A stretch of DNA of 48,867 nucleotides from positions 1 through 48,867 of the forward strand of contig NZ_AWTR02000059.1 in assembly GCF_000469665.2 (NCBI RefSeq), read 5' to 3'. Positions 17,723 to 48,760 of the stretch are shown here, piece by piece. Source of the stretch: Holospora obtusa F1. Its GTDB lineage: Bacteria; Pseudomonadota; Alphaproteobacteria; Holosporales; Holosporaceae. The first letter of the stretch is position 1. Each line of letters begins with the position of its first letter. The notes under the pieces were generated by a model that saw only the letters and a list, made by a program, of their open reading frames with translations, did no database searches and was not told the origin of the DNA. Position numbers and translations under genes: made by a program.

Positions 17723-18288
17723 TAGTGCACAACGCTAAATAAAAAAATTTTCATCATGTTTGATAGGTTTGGGATACTAATCTAACATTTAAGACGAGTG
17801 TAGACGTATTAATTTTAGGAAAATGAGGGAAATTTCAAATCAACGAAATATTTTATGATTAAATTAAGCCCAAATTTGCAAAGATAAGCGTAATTTCTAG
17901 AAGAAAATTCTAAGATCGTACAAATTTATAGCCAAAAATGTCTACCTTAGATCTTTGAGTGTCGTGCTTTTCTTTATTGGCAAAACTCGGCTTAATTTAC
18001 CATATTCGATAAGACACACAAAGATTAGCAAGACTCTCAGAATTTATAAGCGTTACCTCATTTCGTATCATTCCATTCACTACATTGTCAATGATTGCTA
18101 CAAAAACGCGTACTCTAAAATTTAATGATATCACAAGAATCGTGAATATGAATGCTCACTTTGCATAAAAATCGAAAAAAATAAAATTTTTTTGAAGCCC
18201 CCTCACTTGCACAACACATCTACGATAATAGCTATTTATTTTTGTTAGCAAAATTTAAAAAAATATTAATAAAACTTATAAGTTAATG
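17723..18288. other. Spacer without a recognised gene
   Basis: Roughly 560 bp between divergently transcribed genes. Part of it (about 17860-18150) is slightly less A/T-biased and may be a decayed gene, but no frame gives a recognisable family on either strand. Confidence 0.5.
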
Positions 18289-18421
18289 TTGGAAGATTTT
18301 TTCAGTACGTACGAGTTAATGAAAATTAAATTTACAGGTATTCACTAATGCATAAAAAATTACTTTTTATTTTTTCAATTTTTATTTTTCTTACTGGCTG
18401 TGCTGTAAAAAGAGAGCATCA
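18289..18421 (+). repeat. Duplicated 5' head of the lipoprotein gene (copy 1)
   Basis: From TTGGAAG at about 18289 to GCATCAA at 18421 this is a diverged copy of 18449-18587, the promoter region, ribosome-binding site, start and signal peptide of the next gene. It keeps the start region (ACAGGTATTCACTAATG) and encodes a 30-codon peptide, MHKKLLFIFSIFIFLTGCAV plus KREHQIFTDA, at 18348-18440. The -10 region has diverged (TATATA became a different sequence), so it may be silent. A third partial copy of the ATTCACTGATGCATAAAA start region lies at 18425-18442. Confidence 0.75.
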
Positions 18422-18440
18422 AATATTCACTGATGCATAA
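18348..18440 (+). pseudogene. Truncated lipoprotein signal peptide (30 codons)
   Basis: A complete short frame (ATG to TAA) with an almost intact lipoprotein signal: basic MHKK, a hydrophobic stretch and the lipobox LTGC. It then stops ten residues after the cysteine. It is a duplicate of the start of the gene at 18513. If translated it would give a tiny lipopeptide, but a remnant is the simpler reading. Confidence 0.6.
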
Positions 18441-18448
18441 AAACTATA

Positions 18449-18477
18449 TTGGAATTTTTTTTCTTTTAGTGTATATA
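18449..18477 (+). promoter_or_regulatory. Promoter of the BamE-like lipoprotein gene
   Basis: TTGGAA (18449-18454), 17-bp spacer, TATATA (18472-18477), followed by an ACAGGTG ribosome-binding site a few nt before the ATG at 18513. The elements are moderate matches to the sigma-70 consensus. Confidence 0.5.
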
Positions 18478-18512
18478 AAAGTTATGAAGATTAAATTTAC
18501 AGGTGTTCATTA

Positions 18513-18902
18513 ATGCATAAAAAATTACTTTTTATTTTTTCAATCTTTATTTTTCTTACTGGTTGCGCTGTAAAAAGGGGGCATCAATTTTTAGAAGATA
18601 TTAATCATGAAAAAATTTCTCGTCATTTAATTAAAAATAAAACCTCAAAAGATGACGTAAGAAAAAAATTTGGTGATCCCGAAAATGTGAACCTTGCCGT
18701 TGATGGTGGAGAAAGTTGGTTCTATCACTATACACGCACAGAAAGTAAGGGGGTAAATTTTATTCCGGTAGTCGATTGGTTTTATTCTGGAGCAAACCAT
18801 AACACAAGACAATTGAAAATTAAATTTAATCGCTTCGGTTTAGTAGAGCATTTTGCGTTTTCTAATTCTCAAAGCGAAACTAGAACTGGATTACTTCAAT
18901 AA
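18513..18902 (+). CDS. BamE/SmpA-like outer-membrane lipoprotein
   Basis: A 129-residue exported lipoprotein. The signal peptide MHKKLLFIFSIFIFLTGC has its lipobox LTGC with Cys18 as the lipidated residue. The mature part is a SmpA/OmlA (BamE) domain: the helical start ISRHLIKNKTSKDDVRKKFG (family pattern i..G.t..eV...lG.P), then DPENVNLAVDGGESWFYHYT and a final strand LKIKFNRFGLVEHFAFS. In the family this domain helps the BAM complex insert outer-membrane proteins. Length and order fit. I do not assign bamE firmly, since several SmpA-domain lipoproteins exist. Confidence 0.8.
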   Translation: MHKKLLFIFSIFIFLTGCAVKRGHQFLEDINHEKISRHLIKNKTSKDDVRKKFGDPENVNLAVDGGESWFYHYTRTESKGVNFIPVVDWFYSGANHNTRQLKIKFNRFGLVEHFAFSNSQSETRTGLLQ

Positions 18903-21603: not shown

Positions 21604-22143
21604 ATTAGGTCTTGCACTCAATTAAGCTCAACGACAATTAAAGCCAACTGAATGGCGCCTATAAATTTGAAAACATTTTATCATAGCTTGTGGCAATGGC
21701 TTGGTACTGCCTTAAGTTTAACGAAAAAATTCTTAATCAAGTGACGAGAAAACAGAGCGTCCAATAACTTGATTATGCTCTTTTTTTTAGAGCCTGTGCT
21801 GTGTTGATGAGCTCGCACTATCGTTGTATCGATCATCGCGCACCCATGATCATCGTCCTGAGACGAAATTTCAAAGACCTTTTTTATACGTTCTTTCGCT
21901 TCAACGGGTAAAGCGGGTGTGGATGGCTTTAAATCACCAAACTTTTCCGAAAAGACCACGCCAAGAAATTCCCTCACGGAACGGTATAAAACAGTTTCAA
22001 CAAACAAGATATCCTTCTGTCACATCGCCTGATTTTCTAGGTAAACCATCCTTTATCCCATCCCACTATCATCCCTAAACACATAACCTCTCATTTAATA
22101 CACATTTCCTTTGAATTCTTATTAAATTTGAATTAAAGTCTAT
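21604..22143 (-). mobile_element. Decayed IS5-family element with an internal deletion (copy 1)
   Basis: The minus strand carries a defective IS5 (IS1031-like) transposase. The N-terminal part is frameshifted and stop-ridden around 22020-22094 (MRGYVFRDD, then a stop). A readable stretch 22007-21681 has the LYRSVREFLGVVFSEKFGDL and AMIDTTIVRAHQHSTGSKKK motifs with the first catalytic Asp. It then jumps directly to HLIKNFFVKLKA from the far end of the protein, so the middle of the catalytic domain is deleted. The transposase C-terminus reads to an LN stop near 21618. Its terminal repeat (TCAATTAAG-like) is eroded but recognisable against the copies at 31944 and 38141. Confidence 0.75.
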
Positions 22144-31452: not shown

Positions 31453-31943
31453 ACGGCGTTTACTCCTTTCAAACAGTATTCATTTAGGTTCTTCTTACTT
31501 AAGAAAAAAGTCAACAGGCACAATGTAGTTATGAACTTATTAGCAAATTTAAAATGTTACTTAGATCATTAGCAATTTTCAGAAATATTTTCATCTAGGG
31601 GAATCCTAAATAACTGATTTGCAAAATATTAATTTTAAAAAAACGAATATATGAAGTCACAAATTAAAAAAATTTCTTATGTTGTAAGCTACACGGAAAG
31701 TGATGACAATTCAAAGACATATAGACGTTTGTTTTGGATGAGTGCGACCAAATTTGATGTCATTTTTTAAAAAGAAACGAATCGTTTTAGTTTGTAAAAT
31801 GTGTCCCCTAATAATTTAAATTTTGAATTAAATATTTAAAAAAAAACGAGAAAAAGTGTCATTTTTATCATTTTTGAGTAAAGTAATAAATAAGAAAAAA
31901 CATATCTAATTCAATCTAAAATTACAGCTTCGATCATCATCTT
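31453..31943. other. Spacer upstream of rpoD, no gene seen
   Basis: About 490 bp between rpoD and an IS5 derivative. It holds the rpoD ribosome-binding site but I could not assign a clear promoter, and no ORF is family-like. Confidence 0.55.
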
Positions 31944-32612
31944 AGGGCCTTTCCTCAATTAAGTCGAACGAAAATTGAAGCCAAGTGAACGGAACCTAGA
32001 AAATTTGAAGACGTTTGATCGTAGCGTGTGGTAACGGCGAAGTACTGCCTTAAGGTTAGCAAAAAAAAATTTCGATTAAGTGACGGAAAAAGATATTTAT
32101 CATAATTTGAAGACACCAAACAGTTCTTTTTAGGTGGAATCACCGCACTTTTCTTTAAGTTTTAGCCGACCCCTTTCATCGGCATCGTATGCTTTATCGA
32201 AAAGCACTGCATCAGTCTTTACAAAGCAATCCATCAAAGCATCATCCCCCTTCAAATCAAATCATGGTCCTGACCTTGTGTAAGATGAAAAGCGACAGGA
32301 TTTCAAAAACTTTTTCCATACGCCCTTTTGGCTTTAACGGGTAAAGCGAGTGTGGATGGATAAAATCTCCAAACCTCTCCGAAAAAATTAAGCCAAGGAA
32401 TTTCCCCACGGTAACGGTATAAAATAACTTCAACAAACAGGCGATTGTCCTTGGCTGTCCCATCCCCTGGTTTTCCAGGCAAACTTTTCTTTATCCCATT
32501 CCACTGATCATCCCACAACGCACGATATCTCATTTAACACATATTTTCTTTGAATTCTTATTAAATTTTCAAAAAACATCGAAAAAAGTCAACTTAATTC
32601 AGGACGGGCCTT
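31944..32612 (-). mobile_element. IS5-family derivative with internal deletion and frameshifts (copy 2)
   Basis: Both ends are visible: AAGGCCCGTCCTGAATTAAG at the right (minus-strand start) and a related AGGGCCTTTCCTCAATTAAG at the left, giving an element of about 670 bp versus ~850-900 bp for an intact family member. The transposase starts MRYRALWDDQWNGIKKSLPG, shifts frame at FGDF, and jumps from KVFEIL directly to the LTQGQDHDLKGDDALMD region, losing the first catalytic Asp block. It resumes as YDKTSSNFLG-like TRYDQTSSNFLGSVHLASIF and ends at LN. So it cannot make an active protein. Compare the near-identical copy at 38141. Confidence 0.8.
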
Positions 32613-38140: not shown

Positions 38141-38656
38141 GGGACCGTCCTGAATTAAGTTGACTTTTTTCGATGTTTTTTGAGAATTTAATAAGAATTC
38201 AAAGAAAATATGTGTTTAAATGAGATATCGTGCGTTGTGGGATGATCAGTGGATGGGACAGCCAAGGACAATCGCCTGTTTGTTGAAGTTATTTTATACC
38301 GTTACCGTGAGGAAATTCCTTGGCTTAATTTTTTCGGAGAGATTTGGAGATTTTAAATCCATCCACACTCGCTTTACCCGTTAAAGCCAAAAAGGCGTAT
38401 GGAAAAAGTTTTTGAAATCCTGTCGCTTTTCATCTTACACAAGGTCAGGACCATGATTTGAAGGGGGATGATGCTTTGATGGATTGCTTTGTGAAGGCTG
38501 ATACGGTGCTTTTTGATAAAGCGTACGATGCCGATGAAAGGGGTCGGCTAAAACTTAAAGAAAAGTGCGGTGATTCCACCTAAAAAGAACTGTTTGGTGT
38601 CTTCAAATTATGATAAATATCTTTTTCCGTCACTTAATCGAGATTTTTTTTGCTAA
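38141..38656 (+). mobile_element. IS5-family derivative, internally deleted (copy 3)
   Basis: Starts GGGACCGTCCTGAATTAAG, the same terminal repeat as the copy at 31944-32612, and is nearly identical to it along its length, including the same catalytic-domain deletion (KVFEIL joined to the QGQDHDL region). It lacks a further ~36 bp near the start of the gene, apparently by recombination between short repeats (GGAATGGGA and GGATGGGA). The 3' end stops at TTTTTTTTGCTAA and the terminal repeat there is missing, so the copy is truncated. Confidence 0.8.
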
Positions 38657-39363
38657 ACTCAAGATGCTATGGTGATAATTTCCTTTATCTCTATGACTTT
38701 TTTCGAAAATTTTGACTATATAAGACTAATATTTTTTTAAATACGTTATTTGTTCATAACGCTTAACTTCAATTTACGATATGCCAAAAACTCATGGATG
38801 TATTGCTATACAAAGTAAGAGAAGCTATACAAGCACACAATTAGGGAGCGAAAAGAAGAAGTAATGCGGAGCGTTAGCTGGCAGTGCTTTAATCACCATA
38901 GGTTACTCACAGGTTTAAATCAATACAATATTTATTGTTTTATCGATAAAATCTTTAATATTCATTTAACATGACATAACTTTTTTTACACTATTTTAGC
39001 GATATACTCACTCAAAATTTTTCTGTAGCTTATTTAAAGCTCATATCTTTATTTTTTTTGACCTAATTTTTTAGCTTTTCTAAACATTGTCTTTCTTTCT
39101 GACCCACCACGCTTCTTGAGAAAATAATTACTCTCCTACGTGATACCTGAATCTACGCGCTCTATCACAGGTTGTCTTAAATCGTTAATGTAATTTTTTA
39201 TCATTTTTCTTTCACTATCACAAAAAAATTACATCTAATTCAACTTAAATTATTCTGGCTTAAGGCTAAAAAAGTTCTTAATATTAGGTGTATTTTGATT
39301 ATGTTTTCGTGAGCACGGGTTAAGAAATATTCATAAGTGTGATTTTATATGACACACTGCACC
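38657..39363. other. Spacer with a possible IS630 remnant
   Basis: About 700 bp. On the minus strand near 39060-39190 a stop-broken frame reads NYINDLRQPVIERVDSGIT and later FLKKRGGSERKT, vaguely like the N-terminal HTH of an IS630 transposase. A locally G/C-richer patch at 38855-38905 is unexplained. No intact gene. Confidence 0.35.
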
Positions 39364-39420: not shown

Positions 39421-40497
39421 ATGGCTCGCCCAACGCAAATTATTCTCTCTAGTCAAAATTTATTACATAATTTGTCCGTTGTTCGTGCGCGGCACCCTGT
39501 ATGCAAAGTAATGGCTATGGTCAAAGCTAATGCGTACGGTCACGGAATACGAGGTGTTGCGCGTATTTTAGATGATCACGTAGAGTATTTCGGAGTTGCC
39601 AGTATTGATGAAGCCTTGGCTCTTCGTGATGCTGGAATTAAAACTTCAATTGTTTTAATAGAAGGCGTATTTTGTGCTTCTGAGTTTTCTTTAATACATC
39701 AACACAATATTTCAGTAGTCTTTCAGTCTTTAGAGCAGTGGCAGTGGTTTCAGCAGGCTCCTGTTCCTTTAAAAGCCTGGTTAAAAATTGATACGGGAAT
39801 GGGAAGACTTGGATTTGATCTTCTACAAGCCGAATTGGTATACAAAGAGATGCTTCAACATAATGCTATCGAAAAACCTCTGGGGATCATGTCACATTTT
39901 GCCTGTGCAGATATTTTAGGACATCCTTTGAATACGCTTCAATATCAAGCTTTTTCCGAATTTGTGTCACAAAAAAGCGTAATAAAAAGTTTAGAAAACT
40001 CTTCTGCTATCTTGATCTCCGAGGACAGAACCATAAGCGACGTTCTACGTCCTGGATTAGTTTTATATGGATGCAGTCCATTTCCTGAATACAGCGCTGA
40101 TTTTTTTGGATTAAAACCCGTTATGTCTTTGAAAAGCAAACTCATCCGAGTGTTTATGGGAAAGGCAAAGCAAACTTTGGGATATGGTGGAAGATACGTA
40201 TGTAAGCATTCAATTCCTATTGGAGTGGTTGCTGTAGGATATGGAGATGGTTATCCCATTACTGTTCGTGACGGTGCACCTGTTTTGGTAAACAATGTTT
40301 TATGTGAAATTGCTGGACGTATTTCTATGGATATGCTAACCATTGATTTGCGAGCGATGAGTTCTGCCAAAGTCGGAGATCCTGTTACGTTGTGGGGAGA
40401 AGGATTACCCTTAGAAGAATTAGCTCAGTATACTCAGCAGCATGTGTGGAGCATTTTGACAGGCATTCAAAATCGTCCTAAAAGTATATGGTTTTGA
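39421..40497 (+). CDS. alr: Alanine racemase
   Basis: PLP-dependent conversion of L- to D-alanine for peptidoglycan. The 358-residue protein has the PLP lysine in MVKANAYGHG (Lys35) and the second catalytic base Tyr255 in LGYGGRYV. Other motifs: WLKIDTGMGRLGF, GIMSHFACAD, RPGLVLYGCSP and the C-terminal AGRISMDMLTIDLR. Length is normal. The start follows a well-placed promoter. Presence of alr indicates that a cell wall, or at least D-Ala synthesis, is retained in this reduced genome. Confidence 0.96.
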   Translation: MARPTQIILSSQNLLHNLSVVRARHPVCKVMAMVKANAYGHGIRGVARILDDHVEYFGVASIDEALALRDAGIKTSIVLIEGVFCASEFSLIHQHNISVVFQSLEQWQWFQQAPVPLKAWLKIDTGMGRLGFDLLQAELVYKEMLQHNAIEKPLGIMSHFACADILGHPLNTLQYQAFSEFVSQKSVIKSLENSSAILISEDRTISDVLRPGLVLYGCSPFPEYSADFFGLKPVMSLKSKLIRVFMGKAKQTLGYGGRYVCKHSIPIGVVAVGYGDGYPITVRDGAPVLVNNVLCEIAGRISMDMLTIDLRAMSSAKVGDPVTLWGEGLPLEELAQYTQQHVWSILTGIQNRPKSIWF

Positions 40498-40768
40498 ATA
40501 TGTTCATCGTGTTGAATGGGGGGTAATTAAAATTTATAACACTTAAAGCACAAGACGATGGGGTTTTTGATAATAATAGTGTTACAACTTTGAAATCAAA
40601 AAGCACACTGCTTTTTTTAACACACACATAATGAAACACTTAATGCTATATTTTTTTTCAAGAAATCTAAAGTTTTTTAAGCTCTCAAAAGGCTGTTTAG
40701 CCCCCTCCTCTCTCTTTGACTACACAGGTAAGCAAATTTTTTTTAAGTAAAAGCGTGGCTGTATATTG
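40498..40768. other. Spacer
   Basis: About 270 bp, no recognisable gene, ends at a short mobile element. Confidence 0.5.
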
Positions 40769-40909
40769 TATAGTAAATTAAATTGAGATTTGTGAATGCT
40801 TAAAACACGCCACTCAGTTAATCAAAGGTAAAGATTCTCTACTATATGTATTAAAATCTCCTTTTAGAAATAATGCTTATCTTCTTAAATTTCAACTTAA
40901 TTTACTATA
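40769..40909. mobile_element. MITE-like element with TA ends (copy 1)
   Basis: 141 bp with terminal inverted repeats TATAGTAAATTAAATTGAGA (left) and TATAGTAAATTAAGTTGAAA (right, read inwards on the minus strand), each starting with TA, the target of IS630/Tc1-type transposases. It has no coding capacity. A homologous copy lies at 43611. Confidence 0.8.
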
Positions 40910-41011
40910 TTCTATTACCAGGATAAAACACAGAACCCAAATGATCTTAAAAAGATTTATTTTTTTTCTAAATTCTCGTATCATTAAAGCTAAGACCCAG
41001 TACTTATAGCA
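40910..41011. other. Short spacer before pgsA
   Basis: About 100 bp, no features beyond A/T-rich DNA. Confidence 0.5.
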
Positions 41012-41569
41012 GTGTTAAGAAAAATTTTAAGAAAATCTTGGGGGCCTAATGTTTTAACAGGTGCTCGATGTTTTATGGGATTTTGGGTGGGAATGCGTTT
41101 ACGCAATACTTTAGATTGGACGCTAATGATCGCTTTGTTGTGCATCATGCTTACTGATGTTTTAGACGGATGGTGGGCAAGGTCTTATCAGCTAACCTCA
41201 AAATTGGGAAGTGTATTAGATCCTTTAGCAGATAAAGTAATGATTATCAGTGTGTTATTTGGACTTACAAAGCACGAAGTCTTACCCGCATGGTTTTTTT
41301 ATTTAGCTTTGATCAAGGAAATAATATTAATTTTTGGAAGCATATACGGGCTGCGATGGTATAAACGTTTACCATTGAATGCTGTTCGATGGGGAAAAAT
41401 AGCTATGTTGGCTCAGTGTATTTTAATTTTGCTATCTACAAGTCGGATCCTTTATCCCTGGTATCACATCGGGTATGATCTGTGTCTTTGGACGGTAACA
41501 TTATTGATGAGTGTGGCCTTAGTCACATATATCGTGAAATCTAGGGAATTTTACTGTGAAAAAATTTGA
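41012..41569 (+). CDS. pgsA: CDP-diacylglycerol-glycerol-3-phosphate 3-phosphatidyltransferase
   Basis: Integral membrane enzyme for phosphatidylglycerol-phosphate, the first step of acidic phospholipids. The 185-residue protein has the CDP-alcohol phosphotransferase motif DVLDGWWARSYQLTSKLGSV, then LDPLAD (D-x2-DG-x2-AR-x8-G-x3-D-x3-D), with membrane helices on either side. The start is GTG (41012) with no good ribosome-binding site; inside starts would cut the first helix. Its stop lies 14 nt inside the next gene, so the trio pgsA, AI-2E permease and ruvB is probably one operon. Confidence 0.93.
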   Translation: MLRKILRKSWGPNVLTGARCFMGFWVGMRLRNTLDWTLMIALLCIMLTDVLDGWWARSYQLTSKLGSVLDPLADKVMIISVLFGLTKHEVLPAWFFYLALIKEIILIFGSIYGLRWYKRLPLNAVRWGKIAMLAQCILILLSTSRILYPWYHIGYDLCLWTVTLLMSVALVTYIVKSREFYCEKI

Positions 41570-42608
41570 AAAACAGGTTCTAATCTTGTGTTTTTTGGGG
41601 GGAATCTGTGCGTGTGTGTACTGGAGTTTTGGCGCGTTAATTCCATTTATCGTGGGATTTGTATGGGCATACCTTTGGCGACCTGTTATCTTTAAAGCGC
41701 AACATTACAATATATCAGCTGGTGTAAGCGCGTTTTGTATTACTCTTTTGACCTATTGTATTTTAGGAACAGGATGTATAGTATTAATTCCTTCTATAAA
41801 GCATCTCTTAATTTTTTTATTTCAAAACCTTTCTGTGGGGAAAGAAGAAATTTTAAATATGGTTTCCCTTGTGTTAAAAAAAATGCACATTCCTCAACAA
41901 AATGAGTATTGGGTAAAATGCACTTTGGAGAATGCTCTTTCTATTACAACCGAAAAATTAAGAGAAATCGTATTTTACGTGTTTCAAAGAGGATGGAATG
42001 TAGCAAAATTTTTAACAATTATCGCTATGGCACCGTTTTTGAGCTTTTATATTATGAAAGATTGGGCCTTTTTTATGGAAAATTTAATCAAACTTATCCC
42101 AATGCCGTATCGAGCCTCTGTGTTAAAAGGAAGCCAAAGTATCCATTTAACTTTTTCTGCATATTTAAGAGGACAAGCATTGGTGTGTATGAGTTTGTGT
42201 GGATATTATGGAATTTCTCTTAAATATTCCGGTCTAAGATTTGGGTGGTTGATCGGAATTTTAATGGGAGTTTTTGCGTTTATCCCCTATTTGAGTATAT
42301 TTTTGGGAATATGCGTATCATTTTTGATTGCGCTTTTAACTTCTATTCCGGTTAGTTTTAAAATTTTGAGTGTTATTTTTTTTGTAGGATACGGATTAGA
42401 AGCGTTGTTTTTAACGCCTTTTTTGATTGGAAAAAGAATTGGCGTACCCCCTATTGTTGTCTTATTAGCTATTTTTGCTTTAGGACACAGCATGGGATTT
42501 TTAGGAATTTTACTTTCTACTCCATTAACTGCCATCGTTGTTGCAGTCTGGAGATTGATTGCAGAATATTATGTTAATAGTCAATTTTATCAAGGAAAAT
42601 CGTCATGA
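41556..42608 (+). CDS. AI-2E family permease (PerM-like)
   Basis: A 350-residue inner-membrane protein of the AI-2E/PerM/YdiK family. It has a GTG start (41556) overlapping pgsA by 14 nt. About eight hydrophobic segments: CVYWSFGALIPFIVGFVWAY, ISAGVSAFCITLLTYCILGT, then a central soluble domain (QNEYWVKCTLENALSITTEK), FLSFYIMKDWAFFMENLIKL, YSGLRFGWLIGILMGVFAFI and the typical AI-2E end GKRIGVPPIVVLLAIFALGH. Family members are poorly defined permeases; I do not infer a substrate. It runs into ruvB. Confidence 0.85.
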   Translation: MKKFEKQVLILCFLGGICACVYWSFGALIPFIVGFVWAYLWRPVIFKAQHYNISAGVSAFCITLLTYCILGTGCIVLIPSIKHLLIFLFQNLSVGKEEILNMVSLVLKKMHIPQQNEYWVKCTLENALSITTEKLREIVFYVFQRGWNVAKFLTIIAMAPFLSFYIMKDWAFFMENLIKLIPMPYRASVLKGSQSIHLTFSAYLRGQALVCMSLCGYYGISLKYSGLRFGWLIGILMGVFAFIPYLSIFLGICVSFLIALLTSIPVSFKILSVIFFVGYGLEALFLTPFLIGKRIGVPPIVVLLAIFALGHSMGFLGILLSTPLTAIVVAVWRLIAEYYVNSQFYQGKSS

Positions 42609-43609
42609 AAGATATTCCATTAGATCCTCAACAACAGCCTTTAGATCTCTCATTAAGACCGAATTCTTTTTCGGGATTCATTGGGCAAATTCAGTGCGTT
42701 AAAAATTTAAAAATTTTTTTAAAAGCGGCAAAACATAGAAAAGAATCTCTAGATCATGTTTTGCTGCACGGTCCACCAGGGCTTGGAAAAACTACATTGG
42801 CACATTTAATTGCCAAAGATTGTGAAAGTCAACTTAAAATAACTTCAGCCCCTGTGCTAACAAAAACGGGAGATTTAGCTGCATTATTAACAGGGTTACA
42901 AAAGCATGATGTGTTGTTTATTGATGAGATTCATCGTCTTCCCATTACAATAGAAGAGTCTCTTTATAGCGCCATGGAAGATCGAAGGTTGGATATTATT
43001 TTAGGAGAAGGGCCTCATGCGCAATCTATGCGTCTTTCTCTAGAACCTTTTACTCTGATTGGAGCAACAACGCGTATTGGGATGTTGAGTTCTCCTTTGA
43101 AGGATCGTTTTGGTATTACCTTGTCATTAGGATTTTATACAGTATCTGAAATGCAAGCTATTATTTTTCAAGGAGAGCAAACATTAAATATGCAGTTAAC
43201 AAAAGAAGCAAGGCATGCTATCGCGTTGCGTTCACGAGAAACCCCTCGAATTGGTCTGCGATTATTGCGTCGCATTCGAGATTTTGCAGACGCTTGGAGT
43301 GTTTCTCTGATTGATGAACCGTTGGTGTTAAACGCATTAAATGCTCTAGGAATTAATGCATTAGGATTGGATAGCTTAGATCAGCGTTATTTATTTGCAC
43401 TAGGTTATCTATTTCACTCAGGACCAACAGGAATTGAAACATTGTCAGCAACGTTAAATGAAACAAAAGACACGTTAGAAGATGTCGTAGAGCCTTATCT
43501 TTTGCAAAAAGCTCTTATTCAACGAACCCCCAGAGGACGTATCTTAACGGACATAGGAAAGGAGGTGCTTCCGTCATGTCAGTCTAATGAGCATTTTTTT
43601 ACGAGATAA
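42605..43609 (+). CDS. ruvB: Holliday junction branch-migration ATPase RuvB
   Basis: AAA+ motor that drives branch migration with RuvA. The 334-residue protein has Walker A GPPGLGKT at 56-63, Walker B LFIDEIHR, the sensor GATTRIGMLSSPLKDRFG, and the winged-helix C-terminus with GPTGIETLSATLNETKDTLE and RTPRGRILTD. The start overlaps the permease stop by 4 nt (ATGA). ruvA and ruvC, usually upstream, are absent, while a phospholipid gene and a permease precede it instead. Confidence 0.95.
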   Translation: MKDIPLDPQQQPLDLSLRPNSFSGFIGQIQCVKNLKIFLKAAKHRKESLDHVLLHGPPGLGKTTLAHLIAKDCESQLKITSAPVLTKTGDLAALLTGLQKHDVLFIDEIHRLPITIEESLYSAMEDRRLDIILGEGPHAQSMRLSLEPFTLIGATTRIGMLSSPLKDRFGITLSLGFYTVSEMQAIIFQGEQTLNMQLTKEARHAIALRSRETPRIGLRLLRRIRDFADAWSVSLIDEPLVLNALNALGINALGLDSLDQRYLFALGYLFHSGPTGIETLSATLNETKDTLEDVVEPYLLQKALIQRTPRGRILTDIGKEVLPSCQSNEHFFTR

Positions 43610-43610
43610 C

Positions 43611-43755
43611 TATAGTAAATTAATCTGAGGTTTGCGGATAAGAATAAAACACAACACTCAATGATCGAAGATAGACTTTTGCGGCTATATGGCCATATGA
43701 GCTTAGAATCTTTTTTCTGAAAATCATACTTATCTTTACAAACCTCAATTTGAGA
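43611..43755. mobile_element. MITE-like element with one eroded end (copy 2)
   Basis: Begins TATAGTAAATTAATCTGAGG and ends inwards with CAAACCTCAATTTG, a homologue of the 40769-40909 element (shared internal AAAACAC, CACTCA, TTATCTT blocks). The last ~10 bp of the right repeat is lost. The left TA is directly after the ruvB stop. Confidence 0.7.
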
Positions 43756-43784
43756 GTTTTGACGTTTAGATAATTTTATATCAA

Positions 43785-43806
43785 AATACGACTATAGTGT
43801 CGTATT
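43785..43806. repeat. Perfect inverted repeat at the edge of the IS1-like element
   Basis: Arms AATACGAC and GTCGTATT flank TATAGT. It lies about 90 bp before the readable IS1-like frame and might be the remains of an element's end or a binding site. No further support. Confidence 0.35.
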
Positions 43807-43896
43807 AAGGTCATAAGCAATGCATTCAAGAAGTGTAATTCCGAAAACTGCATAAGGAACGGTATAGTACGCAAGGTTCAGAGCTATAAGTGAAGG

Positions 43897-44536
43897 AATG
43901 AAGTTATAACTTTGTTGAAGGTGACAAGAGGGGCAAAAGGGAAAACGGCTGTCAAAAAAGCCTTATACGTCATTTTATACTCTTTAGCTAAGGCATCTTT
44001 TAACATGATGGGTAAAATTCTTGGACATTCTTCTTCTATTATATACAGAGTGGGTGGTGAAAGAGATGGAAAAAATACAAGGATCTTCGGTTTCAGGTCA
44101 CATTCAAACAGTGAAATTTGATGAAATGTGGCATTTTTTTCAAAAAAAGAAGTCAAAAACTCTGGATTATCAAAGCCGTTGATCGTAGCACACGCAGAAC
44201 TGTTGCCTGGGTTACAGGGAATCGTGATGCTGCAACATTCACACGACTTTACGAAAAAGTCAAACACAAACATCTGAAAAATTGCACATTTTATACTGAT
44301 GACTGGGATGCTTTCTCTAAAGTCTCTACCAAAAAATCGCCATAGTATTGGAAAATCAGGCACTGTATAGAGCAAGATCATAGTAATACAAGACATCACC
44401 TAGGACGCATGACGAGACCTACTAAAGTCGTTTCCAAGAAGGAATTTATGGTATACGGATCAATCAAGCTTTGGTGTGCGCTTACGACACCAGAAATCTT
44501 TAATCACTATCAAAAAACACTGCTATCTATCTTTAG
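43897..44536 (+). pseudogene. IS1-family transposase, broken by frameshifts
   Basis: Successive frames give the readings LAKASFNMMGKILGHSSSII, VKFDEMWHFF, KLWIIKAVDRSTRRTVAWVT, DAATFTRLYEKVKHKHLKNC and FYTDDWDAFSKV, and the C-terminal SNTRHHLGRMTRPTKVVSKK, EIFNHYQKTLLSIFR. These are the standard IS1 motifs including TDDWDAF. Several frameshifts interrupt it. The start may be at 43897 (ATG) or earlier. Confidence 0.75.
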
Positions 44537-44710
44537 ATAAAAACTCTCCAAAATTATTTAAAGTTAGTGTATCAGAGATGGGTGAGAAGGATAGGAACTA
44601 CAAGCAAAAAGAAAATGATTTTCCAAAAAAAGAGGTGGGTCGGTAAAAAAGATTGATTGACAAAAGCTAGAACATTATGTCAAAAACAAGCTGCTAAAAA
44701 ATGTGAAGCA

Positions 44711-45647
44711 TATAGTAAAAGCAGTTAAATTATGATAAAATAAAAAAGCACTAATTGACTGACATAAGCCCTGGAAGAGCTCAATTTTCTGCCTAATCAT
44801 CGCTCCATATGTGCCCAAAATTTCTCGATTATATTTAAATCAGGTGAATAAGGTGGTAAAAAAACAACCTTACAACCGGCAGATTCAAGTAATTCTTTGG
44901 TTCTTTGAGAGTTATGAAATGAAGCATTATCCGTGATTACAATCTGTACGGGTTTTAATTCTTTTATCAAAAATTGCTTTACCCAAGCTTCGAATAATTG
45001 TGTGTTACAGGAACCGTTAAAAATCATCAAAGCGAGCAATCGCTTTATTATTTATTAAACTCTCTACAGTATGAGTTTTTTCGTAATTTATCGCTCTTTT
45101 TACCAACAAGTTTTTCACTTTTTTTGCCTCATTTTCTATTTTTGCAAATGGTTATCTCGATCCCGCTTTCGCTAATGCACACAAGGCTTTCAGCTGATAT
45201 ATTTTTATCGCTTCTTGGTGTGTATTTCGTTTTTCTTTACTTGCTTCCACATAGGTGAAGGCTTTTTTTTATAACTAAAGCCTACGCGCCTTAACCAATA
45301 ACGTGCCCCACTGGCACTTATGCCAAATTCACGAGCAATATCTTCTGATCTAGCATCTGGATGATTAGTTACATATTGAATAAAAGACTCTTTTTCTATA
45401 GTTGGCTTTGCCCCCAAACGTATCTTTGGGTGAAAATGTCCTTCACTTTTGTAACGTAAATGCCATCTGTTGATTGTCATTTTGTTTATTCCAAAAACTC
45501 TCGATGCTTCTTTTTGACTGTTACCTGCTTTAATAAAATTTATAACCTTTTCTCTTAAATCTATACTATATGGACTCGTGGACATTATCTATCCTTTTAG
45601 ATGAAATATAGCATATCTCGAATTGCAATTCAACTGTTTTCACTATA
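44711..45647 (-). mobile_element. IS630-family element A with both ends
   Basis: Ends TATAGTAAAAGCAGTTAAAT (left) and TATAGTGAAAACAGTTGAAT (right, read inwards), about 20 of 26 positions matching, each beginning with TA. The element is 937 bp and holds one transposase gene on the minus strand, now split (next entry). Confidence 0.85.
44797..45585 (-). pseudogene. IS630-family transposase, frameshifted
   Basis: The N-terminal part (from 45585) has MSTSPYSIDLREKVINFIKA, the HTH KEASRVFGINKMTINRWHLR and IREFGISASGARYWLRRVGF-like sequence. It stops near 45205. The C-terminal part (45039 to 44797) has IVITDNASFHNSQRTKELLE and LPPYSPDLNIIEKFWAHMER, i.e. the second Asp and the Glu of the DDE triad. 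The first catalytic Asp, expected in a SLVYIDESGIE block between the parts, reads CISESGIE (Ser in place of Asp). Three frames and at least one stop are needed, so it is dead, not a programmed frameshift. Confidence 0.8.
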
Positions 45648-45822: not shown

Positions 45823-46552
45823 TATAGTAATTTAGAATGAAAATGGGATTTAAAAAAATGCTGAAATAGCCTCGTAAAGTTTATCAAACTGATTAATTTG
45901 GTTCTTAACCCATACAACCTATAGATTTGATCAACTCTTTCGTTCTTTGTGATCTATGAAATGCAGCTTTATCCATTATTACAATTTTCCCAGGTTCTGA
46001 TTCTATAACTTTTTTACCCAAGCTTCAAATAATTTTGTATGACAACAGCCATTAAATGCCATATTTGTCCGCTGCTAACAGTTACCGCTCTTTTTAGCAG
46101 CAAGCTTTTTCCCCTTTCTGCCCTATCATCTGTTCTTCACAAATGGTCATCTCAATACTGCTTTCATCAATATATATAAGATTTTTTGATGGTATGCCTT
46201 TTATTAGTTTTTTTATAGCTAAAGTCTAGCTTCTTTAAGCGTCGATACACAGAAAACACATATTAGCATTAAATAGTTTTGTTATCTTCTGCTCATTTTT
46301 TATCTTCATTGGACTTTGACATAAATCCTTAGCTTCTCTGAGTCTATTTTGCTCTTGCTGCCTAAGCGTGGCCTGCTTCTTGGTAACCTGATCACCACCT
46401 ATTTAAGCTATTTCTTGAATGTCGTGTTTTGAGTGTTACCAAGCTTAATATATTCTATTACTTTCTCCCTTAGATTTAAGCTGTAGTGTTTCTTTGTCAT
46501 TTTCTCTTAAAAATACTATCTCCTTGTCCCGTTTTCAAAATAAATTACTATA
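45823..46552 (-). mobile_element. IS630-family element B, degenerate, both ends intact
   Basis: Ends TATAGTAATTTA and TAAATTACTATA form a perfect 12-bp inverted repeat (45823-45834 and 46541-46552). The inner reading on the minus strand starts MTKKHYSLNLREKVIEYIKL and continues with scattered IS630 fragments and stops. At 730 bp it is shorter than element A, so it has lost internal sequence. It differs in family subgroup from A by the terminal repeat. Confidence 0.75.
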
Positions 46553-48469: not shown

Positions 48470-48760
48470 TATGGTAATTTAGCGTGAAAATGGAATTTGA
48501 AAAAATGCGGAAATAGCTTCGTAAAGTTTATTAACCTGGTTAATTTGGTTCTTAACCCATCTTTTTATATTAGCCCAAAATTTCTCTATTGGATTCCAAT
48601 CGGGTGAGTATGGCGGTAAAAAGAGTAGTTAAGAACCTACAAATTCGATCAACTCTTTCGTTCTTTGTGATCTATGAAATGCAGCATTATCCAATTTGCC
48701 CAGGTTCTAATTCCATAACTTTTTACCCAAGCTTCAAATAATTTACTGATGTTACGCAGC
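48470..48760 (-). mobile_element. IS630-family fragment C
   Basis: Begins TATGGTAATTTAGCGTGAAA, a variant of the IS630 B terminal repeat, followed by transposase pieces on the minus strand homologous to element B (GWVKNQI..., LPPYSPD, FHRSQRTKEL readable in broken frames). Its other end is not visible: similarity ends near 48750 and the window stops at 48867. Confidence 0.65.

Follow-up and report, generated by a model that had tools for sequence, protein, structure and literature searches.

Short IS630-type repeats around the pgsA–permease–ruvB genes of Holospora obtusa F1: a decayed MITE family with a candidate parent in a sister species

The three genes pgsA, a permease gene and ruvB of Holospora obtusa F1 stand between two short repeats, which raises the question of whether these repeats brought the genes together. 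The preliminary description of this DNA had suggested this as a possibility, regarding the repeats as MITEs with IS630-type ends that could have joined the trio as a composite unit, which would explain the presence of ruvB without ruvA or ruvC. The window, that is, the whole stretch of 48,867 nucleotides that was analysed, contains the following features relevant to the question:

17854..18004, − strand: MITE copy 3, complete, 151 bp, intergenic (covariance-model match, E 4.0e-14)
40769..40909, + strand: MITE copy 1, complete, 141 bp, non-coding, between alr and pgsA (covariance-model match, E 3.5e-19, positions 1–143 of 143)
40769..40796, + strand: left terminal inverted repeat of copy 1, from the pairing of the inverted arms
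40882..40909, − strand: right terminal inverted repeat of copy 1, from the same pairing, with the outer 18 bp being the exact consensus end
41012..41569, + strand: pgsA-like CDP-alcohol phosphatidyltransferase gene (PF01066, E 1.6e-24)
41556..42608, + strand: AI-2E family permease gene (PF01594, E 2.5e-40)
42605..43609, + strand: ruvB (PF05496, E 7.1e-72; PF05491, E 2.9e-24)
43611..43751, + strand: MITE copy 2, starting 2 bp past the ruvB stop codon, its outer right end gone at an IS1-family element
43752..44548, + strand: decayed IS1-family element cutting copy 2 (NF033558 on one frame piece; recurrent ends)

The presence of two short non-coding copies on both sides of the trio was confirmed, as were the matching terminal repeats of copy 1, whose arms are 28 bp long each and 86% complementary; the claim of matching ends did not hold fully for copy 2, which lacks about its last 11–14 bp. 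Copy 2 lies in the same orientation as copy 1, keeps 29 bp of the copy 1 start at 83% and has the inner right arm, and its outer right end is absent because the IS1-family element starts at about position 43752. The covariance-model match of copy 2 (43611–43762, E 1.2e-11) extends with its final bases into the IS1 element, and none of the missing bases were seen beyond the far side of this element. The NF033558 match of the latter (E 2.8e-14) scored 53.5 bits, under the curated cut-off of 100, and no matching target duplication was seen around it. Copies 1 and 3 are both 82% identical to the family consensus, and copy 3 is not overlapped by any ORF of at least 100 aa. A loose scan of the window alone with an 11-mer (up to two mismatches) found 41 places against a mean of 47.4 in shuffled sequences, which is not above chance, so the evidence for the family comes from the whole element and from its genome-wide occurrence. 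Another repeated element of the window, insertion-sequence-like and decayed, has copies at 21604–22140, 31942–32603 and 38149–38660, and at about 18320–18560 there are two near-identical stretches, each containing the start of a short frame that looked lipoprotein-like by eye.

The assembly of H. obtusa F1 (1,334,837 bases in 91 contigs, 89% complete) contains the motif TATAGTAAATT exactly 31 times, compared with two occurrences of a reversed-pattern control, and the 18-bp end with up to three mismatches was found at 149 places versus 10 for the control. At E ≤ 0.01 a covariance model built from 20 copies gave at least 83 matches, with some copies matched on both strands; at E ≤ 1e-4 it gave at least 65 places. 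Out of 2751 candidates from a first look, 150 were scored in this genome, and 150 in each relative, so the MITE counts may be lower bounds. With 150 candidates scored in each, nine other genomes of the order gave no match at E ≤ 1e-4. The only thing that the model found in the sister species G002 was a single match at E 0.006, the end of an IS630-like element that is considered below as a candidate parent. The end motif with up to two mismatches occurs 62 times in H. obtusa F1, 46 times in the same-genus genome G001, 11 times in G002 and five times in G005, and it was found in none of the other six genomes of the order. In G005, two inverted MITE-like ends lie 828 bp apart (C5:893–1720), perhaps delimiting another IS630 element.

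The consensus was derived from 43 of the 65 copies, picked by hand with the omission of 22 that were truncated, weaker or uncertain at their ends. It is 142 bp long with 28% G+C and has perfect 18-bp inverted ends TATAGTAAATTAAGTTGA. The 43 aligned copies are 119–154 bp long, too short for a transposase gene. Their identity to the consensus averages 79.8%, and the pairwise identity averages 68.9% with a maximum of 87.1%. Since the copies are only about 80% identical to the consensus and no fresh pair exists among them, we read the amplification as an old burst of a family that has probably long been silent. TA is common at both extremities of the consensus (T in 86% and A in 93% of copies on the left; T in 85% and A in 80% on the right). 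Later insertions were also seen: IS630-B and IS630-A ends abut the right halves of MITEs on contigs C18 and C78, and on C26 another repeat lies between two MITE-like ends that are 938 bp from each other. On C39, three MITE-like places (8431, 9952 and 10080) resemble a short tandem array in sharing a nearly identical left flank.

The copies tested for placement are all intergenic. None of these 64 overlapped an ORF of at least 100 aa, with a 20-bp overlap permitted at each end, whereas 10,037 of 17,145 placements drawn at random within the fetched stretches did so; the tested set consisted of the 65 model places without the partial C78:5855 and C22:18491 and with C8:6460 (E 1.1e-4) added. The preliminary description was right in regarding the repeats as a MITE-type family; many more copies occur in the genome, and one that it had not noticed, copy 3, lies in the window itself. 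Taking the length, ends, placement and decay together with the IS630 comparisons given below, we estimate at about 0.85 the probability that the repeats form a decayed, non-autonomous MITE family that is of the IS630 type in general.

The spread of such a family can be pictured as follows. An IS630-type transposase would bind the 18-bp ends and move the MITE in trans into TA sites, copies that landed outside genes would be those that survived, and after the old amplification the copies decayed and were struck by other insertion sequences. The TA-joined flanks of 57 copies were compared with fetched stretches of the H. obtusa genome, and the three spanning matches obtained corresponded to self or tandem contexts; for one locus sought in two same-genus genomes, the flanking genes sit on different contigs there. 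As no empty site was recovered, the duplication of TA is something we infer from the ends of the copies, and the transposition itself is likewise presumed.

IS630 elements are abundant in this genome and heavily damaged. DDE_3 matched at 86 places, one lying within the IS1 element of the window; 64 of the matches contain internal stop codons, and the longest open frame among them is 166 aa. Two recurrent types were distinguished, type A with the ends TATAGTAAAARCAGTTGAATT and type B with the ends TATAGTAATTTAGCWTGAAAA, both with TATAGT. Each is represented by a remnant in the window, and both remnants start with TATAGT as had been described:

44711..45647, − strand: decayed IS630 of type A, ends TATAGTAAAAGCAGTT and TATAGTGAAAACAGTT (DDE_3, E 2.6e-23, at 44788–45039)
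45823..46552, − strand: decayed IS630 of type B, ends TATAGTAATTTA (blastn to type B, 77.9% over 706 columns)

The gltX gene is flanked on both sides by decayed IS630 remnants (45823–46552 and 48470–48694). An IS630 element with the MITE ends was sought in H. obtusa at 14 sites and 20 loci of end-like places among the matches listed, and none was found; those examined, which the model had not hit, had the appearance of isolated decayed ends, ends of IS630 A or B, or MITE ends around another insertion sequence. The search for an IS630 sharing the MITE ends therefore gave nothing in the examined stretches of H. obtusa itself, and it succeeded in G002, where an element with one end identical over all 18 bp bears out the assignment of the ends to the IS630 type.

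This element (G002:C103:14244–15065) is a decayed IS630-like element of 822 bp, whose two ends are identical to the MITE end at 18 and 15 of 18 positions; two further ends in G002 match at 17 of 18. It was similar in blastn to type A (E 1.8e-12), type B (E 1.0e-8) and type D of G001 (E 3.1e-9). Its start piece matched HTH_Tnp_IS630 at E 6e-4 with 20.3 bits, just below the cut-off of 21.3, and no NCBIfam model; its catalytic piece, with X at the stops, matched no Pfam family. An nhmmer match of the MITE to the element had an E of 1.7e-5, but its score of 21.1 carried a bias of 20.4 bits. Inward of the 18-bp end, the right half of the MITE resembled the transposase side of the element to a degree reached by only one of 2000 shuffles. 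The left half showed no match to it (1087 of 2000 shuffles as good; 107 of 2000 against a second G002 end), and the resemblance of the right half to a second G002 copy was weak (139 of 2000).

On these comparisons, the mobiliser of the MITE was probably an IS630 type that is known here only as decayed copies in G002. As the right half of the MITE resembles the transposase-proximal end of this type, the MITE may derive from it by internal deletion. The alternative is that the MITE does not derive from the G002 type by deletion and owes its movement to cross-mobilisation by type A or B of H. obtusa or by type D of G001. In their consensus ends, A and B agree with the MITE at 14–15 of 18 positions (our own count), the single copies compared share 14 and 14 (type A) and 15 and 13 (type B), and a type D copy shares 16; in the shuffled window, nine of 12,213 TATAGT sites match at nine or more of the following 12 positions. 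Type A also comes closest to the left half of the MITE past its end, with 24 of 2000 shuffles scoring as well, and H. obtusa retains at least two exact type D ends. Against this stand the 18, 17, 17 and 15 identities at the four G002 ends and the fact that past the right end the G002 type alone stands out, the right half giving 598, 353 and 617 of 2000 shuffles as good for types A, B and D, respectively. Cross-mobilisation by A, B or D was consequently judged rather unlikely, and the G002 type is retained as the favoured mobiliser.

In tblastn of fetched H. obtusa stretches, which were chosen to include the DDE_3 matches, 172 bins, some of them overlapping, comprised 90 for type A, 74 for B, eight for D and none for the G002 type; with the assembly being 89% complete, absence of the type from H. 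obtusa is unproven. It can tentatively be proposed, at slightly less than even odds, that an IS630 lineage left a deletion derivative of itself at about 65 places in a single species of the genus and then disappeared from it, while the decayed parent type persisted in the sister species. If true, the orphan family would be a natural case of a transposon parasite outliving its host element.

There remains the origin of the trio, for which the composite unit would mean that the two flanking copies carried pgsA, the permease gene and ruvB as a block. Apart from the flanking position of the copies, the surroundings of the trio speak for it, being other than in G001 and G002; in the stretches read of these two, alr was not found beside the trio. 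However, the three genes are contiguous in both of these genomes and in G004, a member of another genus of the family in which they come after a nucleoside diphosphate kinase gene, and blastn, the covariance model and nhmmer detected no MITE at the trio in any of the three, an N-run in G002 beginning some hundreds of bases past ruvB. The trio itself thus occurs in relatives without the repeats, which the preliminary description had named as speaking against its proposal, though not demonstrably in the same place, alr not having been found beside it in G001 or G002. A flanking pair is also unremarkable in a genome with about 65 copies, copy 2 has no outer end, and copies 1 and 2, identical at 91 of 129 positions (70.5%), are an ordinary diverged pair for a family with the mean pairwise identity reported above. 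A RuvB match was found in 30 of the 31 genomes searched, and ruvB follows ruvA in G005, G008 and G009. RuvC is present in all eight genomes of the family, H. obtusa included. Seven of them also gave ruvB, and in these ruvC is located about 105 kb from it in G004 and on a different contig in the others. That ruvB and ruvC stand apart therefore appears to be common to the family rather than brought about by the MITE, contrary to what had been suggested. The carriage of the genes as a composite unit was considered extremely improbable; the MITE most likely did not assemble the trio.

The repeats could instead be retained for a function in RNA, as a terminator, processing hairpin or attenuator, and not be selfish DNA. 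Both strands of copy 1 and copy 2 fold better than shuffled sequences (z −3.3, −4.2 and −3.5), and the exclusively intergenic position of the tested copies would suit such a role, but the folding follows from the terminal repeats, and the fold of the alignment retains six pairs, its covariation term being −0.1 kcal/mol. No terminator-like or promoter-like site was found in copy 1 (scan of 40480–41030), no Rfam match at E ≤ 1 occurred within 40400–44000, and the copies have diverged to a mean pairwise identity of 69%. Retention for an RNA function is hence very improbable, and the repeats are best regarded as members of the decayed MITE family. The tempting story of a trio assembled by MITEs is replaced by that of a repeat family occupying the intergenic space of a genome crowded with broken insertion sequences.

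A comparable element within the genus is type D of G001 (IS630 at C146:2973–3868), whose ends TATAGTAATTTAGGTTGA agree with the MITE end at the 16 positions mentioned and which has a 153-bp derivative with the same ends (G001:C98:3747–3899). The end TATAGTAATTTAGGTTGA is exact at 40 of the 46 places in G001. Type D shows no notable subterminal match to the MITE, on the left as on the right (642 and the above 617 of 2000 shuffles as good). Among elements of other bacteria, the Correia repeat enclosed elements of Neisseria, according to the consulted part of a 2007 review, are non-coding, about 107–155 bp long and have terminal repeats and TA ends (PMC2229807), all of which the present family has in common with them; that part of the review gives no parent IS. 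One variant of the Correia repeat printed in another source starts tatagtggattaaatttaaa (PMC5039591), and by our own count of the printed end repeats 14 of 18 positions are the same as in the MITE end. In contrast to Correia elements, copy 1, the one copy scanned, has no promoter-like site.

In the consulted parts of the literature, including PMC2229807, PMC10969869 and PMC5039591, no mention of this 142-bp family was noticed; to that extent the family is new, which is not a claim that it is unpublished, and small TA-ended elements attributed to IS630 are already known. RUP of Streptococcus pneumoniae, as treated in the same part of the review, is 107 bp long, intergenic and present in 108 copies, and IS630-Spn1 was proposed as its mover because the ends match and the target is TA (PMC2229807). 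The H. obtusa family is likewise small, intergenic, TA-ended and attributed to IS630, but differs from RUP in that its best-matching IS630 lies in a sister species and was not found in the examined H. obtusa stretches, which do contain IS630 A and B. The link to the sister-species type would make it a modest example of small bacterial elements losing their mobiliser. With RUP attributed to IS630-Spn1 and with ends like those of the Correia repeat, the family of H. obtusa takes its place within a known kind of element.
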